Source of the DNA: a bacterium | GTDB lineage: Bacteria > AUK180 | Direction: 5' to 3' | Assembly: GCA_030622125.1 (NCBI GenBank) | Contig: JAUXGM010000052.1 | Span: 1-13,394 of the forward strand | Length of the DNA: 13,394 nucleotides | In this document: positions 3,183-13,390 of the stretch, in pieces | How the letters are laid out: each line of letters begins with the position of its first letter | How positions within the stretch are numbered: the stretch's first letter is position 1 | The notes under the pieces: model-generated | Databases searched by the model: none | Told to the model about the DNA's origin: nothing | Seen by the model: only the letters and a program-made list of their open reading frames with translations | Program-made: the position numbers and the translations under genes

Positions 3183-3342
3183 AATCCAGTATTTCTTTTC
3201 TTCACTCATATACTCATTCTCCCATCCACTTATCTACTTTTACCTAACTCACAACTCAAAACTTTCTTCCCACCCTCGCTAAATCCTGAAAATCAGCATT
3301 TTAAAAGAACTTGTTAAATGAAAATTTTACTTTTCTACCTGT

Positions 3343-3496
3343 CCAGCACTTTGTAAAGGTGCTGTGATTTATCCATTCCTGTTTTTCTTGCTTAAAGAAA
3401 ATTACTTAATTAAGTTGACAAAATTTATTGTCCCCGATTTTTAATTAGGGACGGTGGTTTAAAGCAATTGACCACAGCACCTTTCCAAAGTGCTGG
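3343..3496. repeat. Pair of inverted REP-like hairpins (BIME-like), left of the abiE module
   Basis: Two hairpins in opposite orientation bound a 154-bp unit. The left one, CAGCACTTTGTAAAGGTGCTG (3344-3364), folds with a 9-bp stem. The right one, around 3473-3496, is its reverse complement over 24 bases with one mismatch. The interior holds a GGGACGGTGG motif (3448-3457). The pair resembles bacterial interspersed mosaic elements or a small MITE. No transposase is encoded inside, so any mobilising enzyme would be elsewhere in the genome. A matching pair lies at 5522-5679. Confidence 0.65.
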
Positions 3497-3508
3497 ATTG
3501 ACAATTAT

Positions 3509-3542
3509 AAAAAGGTGTCAGGTTGGTGCTTTGGTTCTTTCA
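3509..3542 (+). repeat. 34-bp direct repeat, left copy
   Basis: This copy begins AAAAAGGTGTCAGGTTGG, ends GTTCTTTCA and is identical over 34 bases to 5393-5426. The two copies flank the abiE toxin-antitoxin operon and are 1,884 bp apart. They could be ends of a transferred segment or copies of a dispersed repeat. Confidence 0.8.
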
Positions 3543-3740
3543 GATTTTGTTGATAGAGAATGAAAAATAAAAGAAAAATAATTAATTTCGAAAAATTTAT
3601 GATATAATGCGTTAACTAAAACAGGAAAAATAGTTGTCGTTAGGTGAGAATTTTAATTGACGCTCATCAAAGAAGAGGAATATAATTTCAAAAGATGACA
3701 AGAACAATTTCAAATATCAGTTAAAAAATAACATTCATAC
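3543..3740. other. AT-rich non-coding leader region before abiE
   Basis: No convincing gene is present. An extended -10-like TGATATAAT occurs at 3600-3608 without a good -35. Its surroundings (aaaaatttatgatataatg, 3591-3609) closely resemble the core of the main abiE promoter (aaaaatttgatataatg, 3754-3770). It may be a second start site or a decayed duplicate. Confidence 0.35.
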
Positions 3741-3806
3741 TTGACATATATCTAAAAATTTGATATAATGTTACAAAATGAATGTAATAATAAATAAATA
3801 CATTCA
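3731..3806. promoter_or_regulatory. Operator-like inverted repeats around the abiE promoter
   Basis: TGAATGTA (3779-3786) and TACATTCA (3799-3806) are perfect 8-bp arms separated by 12 bp, downstream of the -10. A third half-site, ACATTCAT (3731-3738), lies just upstream of the -35 and is complementary to ATGAATGT (3778-3785). Known for the family: AbiEi antitoxins bind inverted repeats at their promoter and repress it cooperatively. The repeats here are placed as that model would require; binding is inferred. Confidence 0.65.
3741..3769 (+). promoter_or_regulatory. Consensus housekeeping promoter of the abiE operon
   Basis: TTGACA (3741-3746) and TATAAT (3764-3769) match consensus exactly with a 17-bp spacer. 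A TG at 3761-3762 also gives an extended -10. The start codon of abiEi lies 50 bp beyond the -10. Such a strong promoter fits an operon held down by its own repressor. Confidence 0.85.
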
Positions 3807-3818
3807 AAAAGGAACACT

Positions 3819-4418
3819 ATGAAGAAAGAGAAGAAAATAATAAAACTTATTGAGGAAAAGGGAATAATTCGTGTTAAAGAGGTAGAATCTTTGAATATTT
3901 CAAGACAATATTTATATCGACTTGTAAGAAGAGGAATTCTTGAAAAGGTTAATAGGGGTATGTACAAAATAAAAAATAGGAAATTCCCCGATGATGAAAT
4001 GTTACTTATTCTTACAAAAAAAATCAATAATTTTACAATATGCCTTTTGAGTGCACTTCAATATTATAACATGACAACTCAAAACCCCTCCCAAATATGG
4101 GTTGCGGTAAAAAATAACTATCGCATTCCTAAAATAAATATTCCCATAAAAATCAATAGATTCAGTGGTAAATCTTTAACATCGGGTAGAAAAAAGGTTA
4201 AAGTTGGCAATATGGAATATTTTATATATAATTCAGCGAAAACAGTATGTGATTGTTTTAAATTCAGAAATAAAATCGGACTGGATATTGCAATTGAAGC
4301 TTTGAAAGCATATATAAAAGATGAGCATGGAGATATTAATGAATTGTGGAAATTTGCAAAGATCGATAGAGTGGAAAGGATTATAAAACCCTATATCTAT
4401 AGTTTGTTAAATGAATAA
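3819..4418 (+). CDS. abiEi: AbiEi-family antitoxin and transcriptional repressor
   Basis: This 199-residue protein has an N-terminal winged helix-turn-helix at about 1-52 (IIRVKEVESLNISRQYLYRL, then RGMYKI). The AbiEi C-terminal domain follows at about 70-199, with LSALQYYNMTTQNPSQIWVAV and the signature KTVCDCFKFRNKIGLDIAIEAL at 141-162. Length and domain order fit type IV AbiEi antitoxins, which repress their own operon and neutralise AbiEii without forming a stable complex with it. AAAAAGGA precedes the ATG by about 6 bases, and the start lies 50 bp after a consensus promoter with inverted repeats. The stop overlaps the abiEii start by 8 bp, indicating translational coupling. The gene is visibly richer in A/T and lysine than the surface-protein gene upstream, which together with the flanking repeats suggests transfer. 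Confidence 0.9.
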   Translation: MKKEKKIIKLIEEKGIIRVKEVESLNISRQYLYRLVRRGILEKVNRGMYKIKNRKFPDDEMLLILTKKINNFTICLLSALQYYNMTTQNPSQIWVAVKNNYRIPKINIPIKINRFSGKSLTSGRKKVKVGNMEYFIYNSAKTVCDCFKFRNKIGLDIAIEALKAYIKDEHGDINELWKFAKIDRVERIIKPYIYSLLNE

Positions 4419-5271
4419 GAAAAATTTGGTTCAATCTATAAAAGATAAGTTATTAAATATTGCAAAAGAGGAAAATGTTAATTACAATTTTATTCTTATT
4501 AAATACGGTACTGAAAGTTTTCTACAGCGATTAGCGTTATCAAAATATAAGAATAATTTTATTTTAAAAGGTTCAACTCTATTTTATATATGGTTTGGAA
4601 AAGGTTTAAGACCCACTTATGATGTTGATTTTTCAATTAATAAGGGTTATACACTTGAAGAGATTTTAAAAATTGTACAAGAAATATGCTCTGAAATAGA
4701 TGTTAATGATGGAATTAAATATGATCTTAATTCAATAAAAGGTAGAAAAATAATGAATCAAAGGCAAGAAATTGGGTATAGAATAAAAATAAGAGCTAAA
4801 TTAGGAAATACACAAATCCCAATACAAATAGATCTGGGACTGAATAATTCAATTAGTCTATTTACAGATACAATTTCATATAAAAAAATCTTGGATAATA
4901 AATCATTTTCAATATTGGCTAATTATCCGGAGATAGTTATTGCTGAAAAATTTGAATTCATTGTGAAATCCGGAATGTTTAACAGTCGTATGAAGGATTA
5001 TTATGATGTTTGGTTTTTGTTAAAGAATTTAAAAATAAGAAAGGATATACTAAAAAAAGCAATGATAACAACATTTAATAAAAGAAAAACGAGATTACCA
5101 AAAAACATTCCTGTTGGCTTAAAAAAGGAATTTTACAATAATAGGGAAAAGCAAGTTATGTGGGAGGCATTTTTAAAAAGAATTAATATAGGAATAACAC
5201 CGTTAGAAATTGTTATTAAAGAAATAAGAAAAACAATACTCCCAGTGATAAAAAATATAAATGAACTTTAA
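4411..5271 (+). CDS. abiEii: AbiEii/AbiGii-family nucleotidyltransferase toxin
   Basis: This 286-residue protein carries the family's nucleotidyltransferase motifs in order. FILKGST is at 50-56 and TYDVDF at 69-74, with the two metal-binding aspartates D71 and D73. IPIQIDLG is at 136-143, where D141 is the likely third acidic residue. IVIAEKFEF is at 175-183 with K180, and SRMKDYYDVWFLL at 192-204. Family knowledge: AbiEii toxins are DNA-polymerase-beta-fold nucleotidyltransferases that arrest growth, and AbiE systems protect against phages by abortive infection. Some homologues add nucleotides to tRNA acceptor stems. All catalytic positions look intact, so an active toxin is likely. The ATG overlaps the end of abiEi by 8 bp (ATGAATAA). 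No terminator is visible after it. Confidence 0.9.
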   Translation: MNKKNLVQSIKDKLLNIAKEENVNYNFILIKYGTESFLQRLALSKYKNNFILKGSTLFYIWFGKGLRPTYDVDFSINKGYTLEEILKIVQEICSEIDVNDGIKYDLNSIKGRKIMNQRQEIGYRIKIRAKLGNTQIPIQIDLGLNNSISLFTDTISYKKILDNKSFSILANYPEIVIAEKFEFIVKSGMFNSRMKDYYDVWFLLKNLKIRKDILKKAMITTFNKRKTRLPKNIPVGLKKEFYNNREKQVMWEAFLKRINIGITPLEIVIKEIRKTILPVIKNINEL

Positions 5272-5462
5272 AATTTGATGGAAAGAAATTTTACTATATA
5301 GATCAAATTGAAATTGACCGGAATGATCTGAAGAAAATTTTCAAAGGGAATGCTATTGAATTAAGAGTAATTCCATTGATAATGTTCTTTAAAAAAAGGT
5401 GTCAGGTTGGTGCTTTGGTTCTTTCAATTTTTTTTCTCGTTCATGAAATGAGTTTTGTTTAA
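5265..5462 (+). pseudogene. Open-frame remnant, probable 3' end of a displaced gene
   Basis: A third frame is open from 5265 to a TAA at 5460-5462, without a start codon in its first half. The first 37 or so codons read like real protein (KFDGKKFYYIDQIEID, then RNDLKKIFKGNAIELRVIPL). From about 5386 the frame runs into the poly-A stretch and then the 34-bp direct repeat, after which the translation loses coding character. I do not recognise the family. The simplest reading is the tail of an older gene, cut off on the left by arrival of the abiE segment and on the right by the repeat. A chance open frame cannot be excluded. Confidence 0.4.
5393..5426 (+). repeat. 34-bp direct repeat, right copy
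   Basis: This copy is identical to 3509-3542 and in the same orientation. It sits 122 bp after the abiEii stop, inside the open-frame remnant. Similarity stops at both ends of the 34 bases apart from the A run. Confidence 0.8.
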
Positions 5463-5521: not shown

Positions 5522-5679
5522 CCGCACTAAATATTGGTGCGGTGGTTGTGAGTTGAAGAAAGAAGAGATTCACCGCAGAGACGCAGAGTTCGCAGAGGAA
5601 TAATAGATGCTTAGTTCTGAGAAGAAACAAAAGAAAACAAGGAAATATAATAACCACAGCACCTTTTCAAAGTGCTGTG
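5522..5679. repeat. Pair of inverted REP-like hairpins, right of the abiE module
   Basis: The left hairpin, CCGCACTAAATATTGGTGCGG without its outer base, has a 9-bp stem at 5522-5530/5534-5542. The right hairpin has perfect arms CACAGCAC (5655-5662) and GTGCTGTG (5672-5679). Both share the GCACT...GGTGC plan of the hairpins at 3344-3495, in opposite orientations, and the span (about 155 bp) matches that pair. The right hairpin lies 33 bp past the stop of the minus-strand response regulator gene and may also act as an end-of-operon structure; no strong T run follows it. Confidence 0.6.
5571..5598. repeat. cgcagag short repeats
   Basis: CGCAGAG occurs three times at 8-9 bp spacing, within CACCGCAGAGACGCAGAG and the bases that follow. 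This type of dispersed repeat recurs in intergenic regions of many environmental bacterial genomes. It lies inside the hairpin pair at 5522-5679. No gene is seen between 5463 and 5711. Confidence 0.55.
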
Positions 5680-5711
5680 ATCAACTCTCAACTATCTACT
5701 CACTTCCTTAT

Positions 5712-11676: not shown

Positions 11677-11746
11677 GTTATGGTATAATTATGAGAAGTC
11701 AGCCCCTCAGAAAAGCACCCGCCCCCGTTTATTCCTTGATTGGAAT

Positions 11747-11775
11747 TTGAGAAAAATTTTAAAAAGTGGTATAAT
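11747..11775 (+). promoter_or_regulatory. Housekeeping-type promoter of citXG
   Basis: TTGAGA (11747-11752) and TATAAT (11770-11775) have a 17-bp spacer and an extended-10 TG (11767-11768). The -10 ends 16 bp before the ATG, so the leader would be about 10 bases and start around the AAAGGTG ribosome site. Confidence 0.65.
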
Positions 11776-11791
11776 TATATAAAGGTGAAAG

Positions 11792-13078
11792 ATGAAAGAC
11801 GCAATCCTTAATGCCAGAGAAAAACGGTATCAATATCAGAAAAAATTGTTAAAAAGGCACAATAAATTGATCACATTTTCTCTTACTCCGCCGGGAAATA
11901 GAAAGGTAACAAAAAATTACACAAAATATTTTTCTTTTGTAAGTAAAATATTTGAGGAGAATTTTAAAAAGATACTCTTTAAAAAAGATGAGATCATTGA
12001 TGATGGCGGTTATCAAACAACCTATTTTTTTAAAAAGGATATTTCATTATTAAAAAAGCAATTTGTTGAGTTTGAAAATATCTACATTTTCAATATTATC
12101 GATATAGACATAATAACCGTTGAAGCCGGAATTATGAGGCGAAGAGACCTCGGTTTAAGTGAAAGAAAGTGCATTGTTTGTAAAAAAGGAAGTTCCAAAG
12201 AATGCTTTATAAATGAAAATCATTCTATATCCGATGTAAGAAAAGAATATCTAAAAAGGGCTAAAAGAATTGTCTCTATAAAGAAGATAAAGAAAAACTT
12301 AAAAAGGCAATTAAAGAATTCACTTTTTATCGAACTTACCACAACACCAAAGTATGGACTTGTCGATCTTATGGGAAAGGGAATTCATAAGGATATGGAT
12401 TTTAAACTTTTTGAAAAATCAATTGATGTGATCTGTAATGATATTGACATACTTTTTGATCTCGGTATAAATACATTGAGGATAAGAGAAAAGGTTACCT
12501 TGAACAATATCCGTAAAAAAGGTAAGATCATAGAAGATAAGATGTTTAAAATAACAAAAGGGATAAACACATTAAAGGGTGGAATATTTATATATTCATT
12601 AATATTTTTTTCAATTGGTTTTGCAATTACCCATAATGAAGACATAGAACCGAATTCCATATTCGGCTATATAAAGAATATTACGAACAAGATAACGGAT
12701 GAACTATCAAATAAGAATTTAAAGTCATTTTCCAGATTATGCTACGACAAATATAATGTTACGGGCATCAGAGGTGAGGTTGAAAACGGGCTTTCGTCCG
12801 TTCGGAAAGTATTGAATATCAATCTTAAATATCAAAGTATAAATGAGCTTTCATTAAGAAGATTTTTATATCTTTTCAAAAATTGTGATGATACCCAGGT
12901 AATAAAAAAAATCGGTTTAAAATTATATAGAAAGATACAGAAAAACATTGATCCTTCCAATTGCAATTTAAATGAAGAATTGGAAAAATATCGTTTATAT
13001 GTTGAGAAATACCATTTCTCTGCGGGCGGTGTTGCCGATCTACTTTCCGTTGTTTTTTTTATGGGGACGGTGGCATGA
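11792..13078 (+). CDS. citXG: Fused CitX-CitG: citrate lyase prosthetic-group synthesis
   Basis: 428 residues. The N-terminal CitX part (about 1-160) has LNAREKRYQYQKKLL, TPPGN and the signature RRRDLGLSERKCIVC at 116-130. CitX transfers the phosphoribosyl-dephospho-CoA group to the acyl carrier subunit of citrate lyase. The CitG part (about 175-428) has TPKYGLVDLMGKGIHKDMDF (185-204), KGINTLKGGIF (256-266), TGIRGEVENGLSSVR (324-338) and SAGGVADLLSVVFF (410-423). CitG makes the triphosphoribosyl-dephospho-CoA precursor from ATP and dephospho-CoA. The usual NTHKG reads NTLKG here. The final residues GTVA come from a dispersed GGGGACGGTGG repeat, so the natural C-terminus may be slightly replaced. 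No citrate lyase subunit, ligase or transporter gene is in the window. The start is supported by AAAGGTG 5 bases upstream. Confidence 0.88.
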   Translation: MKDAILNAREKRYQYQKKLLKRHNKLITFSLTPPGNRKVTKNYTKYFSFVSKIFEENFKKILFKKDEIIDDGGYQTTYFFKKDISLLKKQFVEFENIYIFNIIDIDIITVEAGIMRRRDLGLSERKCIVCKKGSSKECFINENHSISDVRKEYLKRAKRIVSIKKIKKNLKRQLKNSLFIELTTTPKYGLVDLMGKGIHKDMDFKLFEKSIDVICNDIDILFDLGINTLRIREKVTLNNIRKKGKIIEDKMFKITKGINTLKGGIFIYSLIFFSIGFAITHNEDIEPNSIFGYIKNITNKITDELSNKNLKSFSRLCYDKYNVTGIRGEVENGLSSVRKVLNINLKYQSINELSLRRFLYLFKNCDDTQVIKKIGLKLYRKIQKNIDPSNCNLNEELEKYRLYVEKYHFSAGGVADLLSVVFFMGTVA

Positions 13079-13150: not shown

Positions 13151-13188
13151 AATAAGAGAATAAGGGAATAAGTAAAACAATACTAATC

Positions 13189-13224
13189 TCCGAAAAACCA
13201 TAAAAGAGGGACATTACCTCAACA
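13189..13224 (+). repeat. Direct repeat, copy 1 (CCATAAAAGAGGGACAT type)
   Basis: TCCGAAAAACCATAAAAGAG and the following GGACATTACCTC recur at 13356-13390 with a few differences and one base fewer. The copies start 167 bp apart. Confidence 0.65.
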
Positions 13225-13270: not shown

Positions 13271-13355
13271 AGGTTAGAGGTTAGTGAAAAACAATATTAA
13301 ACTCAGTGAATAGTAAATCGTCAATAGTAAATAGTAAAGTAAAAAAATATAAAAA

Positions 13356-13390
13356 TCCGAAAAGCCATAAAAGAGGGACATACCTCATCA
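13356..13390 (+). repeat. Direct repeat, copy 2
   Basis: TCCGAAAAGCCATAAAAGAG and the following GGACATACCTC match 13189-13224. The window ends just after it, so further copies beyond the edge are possible. Confidence 0.65.

Follow-up and report, generated by a model that had tools for sequence, protein, structure and literature searches.

An abiE operon between direct copies of a dispersed repeat best described as a RAYT-type terminal repeat, with a promoter-bearing long form found mostly ahead of defence-type genes

The window analyzed here is an entire contig (C28) of 13,394 nucleotides from a 2.08-Mb bacterial genome assembled into 192 contigs at 96% completeness, hereafter G000. On its forward strand lies an AbiE operon composed of abiEi (3819-4418), which encodes an antitoxin/regulator of 199 aa (PADLOC AbiEi, 1.3e-66; PF13338, 45.9 bits), and abiEii (4411-5271), which encodes a nucleotidyltransferase-type toxin of 286 aa (PADLOC AbiEii, 3.2e-76; PF08843, 115.8 bits). 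The two genes overlap by 8 bases, and the operon looks intact. It is preceded on the same strand by its own sigma-70-type promoter (3741-3769; TTGACA-17-TATAAT, 12/12 consensus positions, with a TG ahead of the -10 element). Between this promoter and abiEi, an inverted repeat can be read from the sequence, GAATGTA-12-TACATTC (3780-3805, arms 3780-3786 and 3799-3805), and could serve as the AbiEi operator; AbiEi is known to autoregulate via inverted repeats (PMC7319586). The overlapping two-gene organization, with an AbiEi regulator/antitoxin and an AbiEii nucleotidyltransferase, is the same as in the AbiE type IV toxin-antitoxin system (PMC3985639), and no structural difference was found from that system. 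The operon is predicted to work as a type IV toxin-antitoxin driven by its own promoter. The sequence-only reading had regarded AbiE as acquired cargo, in agreement with the GC content of the operon (24-28% versus 33% for the window) and with its closest relatives, which are ~29-39% identical and come mostly from unrelated phyla. No AbiEii was found in IMG/VR, and phages and plasmids contain distant relatives only. The response regulator neighbouring abiE has only ~42% matches among many paralogues in same-family genomes of other genera, with no clear orthologue.

The operon is flanked by two forward-strand copies of a 34-base sequence (3509-3542 and 5393-5426), identical at 34 of 34 positions, in direct orientation and 1884 bases apart, as had been noticed from the sequence alone. 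The probability of a 34-base match by chance in 13 kb is negligible. The similarity tapers off on both sides, to 91% over 3505-3551 versus 5389-5435, and the two copies have different forms. Copy 2 consists of the core only and diverges immediately past TTTCA, whereas copy 1 is extended by a tail, AGATTTTGTTGATAGA..., into a long form (3505-3567, forward strand) that aligns with long units on contigs C84, C95 and C191 and in the genome of a different genus of the same family (G002), and that is recovered by models R1 (E 2.0e-19) and R2 (E 1.2e-15). The promoter half of this tail is degraded (a 9/12 sigma-70-type match in 3550-3579). Because of this degradation, and because 200 bases beyond it abiE has a promoter of its own, the long unit need not serve abiE, and it is probably no longer the promoter of the operon. 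Between 3543 and 5392, the only recognisable genes are abiEi and abiEii, with no transposase, integrase or other recombinase open reading frame (ORF). A recombinase gene between the 34-mers would be expected if they delimited a composite transposon or an integrative element. An open frame past the abiEii stop (5272-5392; FDGKKFYYIDQIEIDRNDLKKIFKGNAIELRVIPLIMFFKK) runs into copy 2 and may be the remnant of another gene.

The identity of the two copies had been taken to imply recent duplication, dispersal or recombination, and a count of the 34-mer across the genome had been proposed. The exact 34-mer occurs in G000 only at the two window sites. With up to three mismatches allowed, two additional copies appear, on C84 and C95 (two mismatches each), and C191 carries a more degraded copy. 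These subfamily members differ from the window copies at 2, 2 and 5 of 34 bases, respectively, and pairwise differences within the subfamily are 0, 2, 2, 2, 5 and 7. Given such a family, the perfect identity of the window pair is only mildly surprising; it is compatible with the subfamily and is not by itself proof of a recent joint event. The pair does belong to a dispersed family and is not a product of chance similarity, so that this part of the earlier claim holds.

The intergenic stretches around abiE contain several further repeat families. A block of ~140 bases after abiE (5544-5685) recurs with 94-95% identity on C65 and C69 of G000 and partly on C91 and C119, which indicates that the intergenic regions of G000 form mosaics in which several repeat families are combined. 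One of the numerous dispersed families of this genome consists of palindromic CAGCACCTTT..AAAGTGCTG repeats, located in the window at 3342-3366, 3473-3497 and 5653-5677; two of these palindromes score as terminator-like. Another family is represented at the end of the contig by a 45-base direct repeat (13170-13214 versus 13337-13381, 87% identical, ending in AAAAGAGGGACAT). Such mosaics, combined with the location of acquired genes in long intergenic regions, raise the alternative that independently inserted repeats flank abiE by coincidence, which is favoured by the additional families in the same two intergenic stretches, including the recurrent block, and by the ordinary genes that adjoin core-only copies elsewhere. 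We consider this explanation rather unlikely, since it accounts neither for the orientation of the long form into defence-type genes nor for the repeated direct brackets, both described below.

Alignment of all copies gave the core consensus GTGYCAGGTTGnnnnTTTGnnnnTTTCA, preceded by a run of A. The variable 4-mer occurs twice within the core, and its two instances tend to match (ACGC/ACGC, CTTC/CTTC, ACGG/ACGG); in the window subfamily the two 4-mers are GTGC/GTTC. The long form continues beyond the core with a tail of the type AGATTTTATTGATTGGAATTTGAGAAAAA-...-GTGATATAAT, which in the best copies reads TTGAGA-17-TATAAT in the alignment, with a start codon a few bases further. From several long copies a short leader ORF resembling M...(I/V)YKLYDLTDE continues, and the motif (I/V)Y(K/E)(L/Q)Y(D/N)LT was observed directly 3' of several units, ahead of the accessory gene (loci L110 in G002:C31, L113 in G002:C215 and L120 in G000:C65). 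Compared with shuffled sequences, the window copies fold no better (z 0.94 and 0.32), the sole good folder being the copy on C84 (z -3.3), and the search of the window against Rfam gave no match; a hairpin or RNA-structure reading of the repeat was set aside, the window copies having no support from folding.

About 10 further recognisable copies of the core are present in G000, and the core also occurs in three related genomes; core matches number 10 in G000, 16 in G002, 4 in G001 and 3 in G004. Models derived from the copies identified more than 12 members each in G000 and G002 and few in G001 and G004, with nothing convincing in the further relatives examined. When 290 genomes were scanned with mismatches allowed, the core was confined to this family, save for scattered single two-mismatch matches in other lineages, and neither the exact core in GTDB r220 and IMG/VR nor the repeat unit in plasmids gave any match.

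The origin of the core is suggested by its association with RAYT-like Y1 transposase genes. In G002 (C188:3842-4909), two inverted cores enclose an intact protein of 324 aa with matches to Y1_Tnp (33.6 bits, cut-off 23) and, slightly below the cut-off of 80, to REP_Tyr_transpos (71.7 bits). In G000 (C122:4426-5270), inverted cores enclose a homologue 48% identical to this protein and devoid of its first 62 residues, the HFH motif among them; both elements sit between purC-like and purH-like genes. The core as the inverted ends of RAYT-like genes corresponds to the terminal repeat of a RAYT-like element in the TIRtron sense, and the repeat is best described as a RAYT/TIRYT terminal repeat rather than an attachment site. 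Its present mobility in G000 is doubtful because the sole cognate RAYT found lacks the N-terminal part. Four other RAYT genes of G000 bear different inverted ends, of the GGGGACGGTGG family in three and of another sequence in the fourth. An early idea that these four, the first to be found, own the 34-mer was dropped, three having GGGGACGG-family ends and the fourth another sequence. In the elements of L051, L052 and L053 (C73, C140 and C141), each inverted GGGGACGGTGG end is followed by the element's own tandemly doubled short word, e.g. TTGCAAAAGTTGCAAAA, which is the same at both ends; this constant-plus-doubled-word design is as in the GTGCC core.

In TIRtrons (TIRYT), RAYT-like Y1 transposase genes are flanked by inverted repeats that are also found dispersed (PMC3733652), and the present core likewise flanks a Y1/RAYT-like gene in inverted orientation and is dispersed without a transposase gene. 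Unlike TIRtrons, the long form described here is fused to a promoter tail, and direct pairs surround non-transposase genes. Additionally, a GTGCC motif, within a core reading GGTGYCAG, is found in place of GGGGWSAS, which is common to some terminal inverted repeats only and is not universal (PMC3733652). REP elements and REPINs (PMC2817692, PMC3116915, PMC6006769) are similarly short, extragenic, dispersed repeats tied to RAYT-like genes, but they occur in hundreds of copies rather than about ten, and the repeat studied here has neither the GTAG/GTGG tag nor a consistent hairpin, and is therefore not a REP in the strict sense (PMC6006769).

The genes downstream of the long form distinguish it from the core. 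Near-identical promoter sequence was found upstream of non-homologous genes, with the long form at ~18 loci in two genera. Among copies with a same-strand ORF within ~400 bases, the following gene is of a defence or toxin-antitoxin type in 14 of 16 cases, compared with 2 of 16 in a small control set of genes led by long intergenic regions from 20 arbitrarily chosen contigs (Fisher p 2.4e-5, a value that is indicative only because functional classes were assigned by the author after seeing the genes). In G000, these genes encode AbiE (C28), a DNA methylase with an MjaI-type endonuclease (C95), AlbA_2 (C150), a nucleotidyltransferase of PADLOC type PDC-M05A and, after a second unit, Fic (both C69), DUF4062/HATPase_c_4 (C65), an AlbA_2-type fragment (C175), and a two-ORF module whose second ORF is nucleotidyltransferase-like by eye, without a Pfam match (C184). 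In G002, they encode AlbA_2 and RhuM/Fic (C31), DUF1016 twice (C319 and C55) and a HATPase_c_3 protein (C215), and in G004 a KAP NTPase (C16). The exceptions, not defence-like, are a Metal_resist protein (G000:C84) and a DUF3267 protein following the third unit of G002:C31. All ten proteins of this set scanned with PADLOC matched a known or candidate defence model, some AlbA_2 matches being partial; a handful of the 16 controls also matched, partly via generic domains. By contrast with the long form, core-only copies adjoin ordinary genes or RAYT genes. The sequence-only reading had proposed that copies at intergenic sites unrelated to cargo would make the flanking coincidental; such sites are occupied by the core-only form and not by the long form.

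In the concept of putative mobile promoters, near-identical promoter-bearing sequence is found ahead of non-homologous genes. The long form matches this description, with the difference that it is coupled to a terminal repeat of transposase type and, in most cases, to genes of a defence type. Repeats of this kind are known; a terminal repeat that bears a promoter and is associated with defence genes is unusual. Several observations count against the explanation favoured below: the degraded tail of copy 1, the truncated cognate RAYT of G000, the small control set, the two long copies that precede non-defence genes, and a promoter tail standing without the core in the window itself (11735-11767, forward strand, 21-base motif exact), ahead of a citX-citG fusion gene (11792-13078).

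Direct brackets around accessory genes other than abiE were found at three loci. On G000:C69, the second unit begins right after the stop of the ORF following the nucleotidyltransferase gene; on G000:C150, a unit lies within a few bases of the AlbA_2 stop; and on G002:C31, RhuM/Fic lies between two units identical at 117 of 125 bases, the second of which includes the opening codons of that gene. Two nearly identical GGGGACGG-family repeats in direct orientation enclose a broken AbiE pair in G001; the surrounding island also contains HsdR, an HsdS-like ORF, an intact AbiE, ORF6N and HepT/MNT genes. Of the repeat pairs identified by script, all 5 that surround RAYT genes are inverted, and 10 of the 12 others are direct.

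These brackets bear on the proposal that the pair marks a cassette, in which a unit plus abiE would move as a module by homologous or site-specific recombination, and entry into an existing core-only copy would leave one copy on each side. The forms of the copies fit, copy 1 having an element-side tail and copy 2 none, and so do the several directly bracketed accessory genes, with the close spacing on C69 and C150 and the similar units of G002:C31. However, the majority of loci carry a single copy, the pair neither encloses nor adjoins a recombinase gene, and the spacing of the repeat after the stop varies, reaching ~120 bases after abiEii. We regard this explanation as unlikely. What stands of the cassette claim is that the repeats are not due to chance, belong to a dispersed family and lie repeatedly beside accessory genes, several of them directly bracketed. 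That the pair delimits a mobile AbiE cassette is not supported: the two copies differ in form, the repeat is mostly single elsewhere, and the core caps RAYT-like genes in inverted orientation and adjoins ordinary genes.

Gene-plus-repeat arrays in direct orientation also recall the cassette array of an integron, in which the repeat would be the attC site and abiE a cassette, and small C-terminal integrase-like fragments are scattered over G000:C65, G002:C294, G002:C110 and G001:C95. This reading is disfavoured and highly improbable: the TIGR02249 integrase model gave nothing over the cut-off in 7 genomes, where full-length matches were XerC/XerD-like; neither GTTRRRY nor RYYYAAC, the attC core sites, is present in the unit (3505-3567, both strands inspected); and the units, dispersed among contigs, bear promoters directed at the following gene. 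The fragments themselves are short C-terminal pieces of tyrosine recombinases resembling integron integrases (L120:2293-2520 on G000:C65; L230 on G001:C95, ending in VRSPADF), and their position near accessory genes makes them possible integron relics. A speculative proposal, which we hold to be quite improbable, is that this lineage has a non-integron gene-cassette system that operates at the long unit, as terminal repeat plus promoter and sometimes leader ORF. Driven by RAYT or recombination, such a system would gather individual defence genes into direct-repeat arrays in which they are expressed, the abiE bracket being one such cassette.

The probable explanation, in our assessment, is that the window 34-mers are two members of a dispersed family whose core forms the ends of RAYT-like Y1 transposase genes as a TIRtron-type terminal repeat, the long form lying upstream of abiE and the core-only form downstream. 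The repeat would have been dispersed by RAYT action, by recombination between the numerous intergenic repeats, or by both, and long copies may have been retained where their tail expressed newly arrived genes. Either a local duplication or successive insertions could have left abiE with a direct copy on each side. This bracket gives homology for deletion or exchange and is not evidence of a dedicated mobile cassette; excision, loss or insertion of abiE by recombination between the copies would be possible in principle.

This outcome is a correction to the view, tempting when two repeats match perfectly, that such a pair marks where a mobile cassette begins and ends, and the promoter-bearing terminal repeat ahead of defence-type genes is a more interesting finding than the cassette interpretation. 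What RAYT-type repeats do is a matter of continuing debate. Turnover of defence genes is rapid, and the ways in which new arrivals find a site and come to be expressed are not well understood. If the present interpretation is true, a promoter-carrying, transposase-type repeat oriented into unrelated defence genes would be a concrete route to wire them up.
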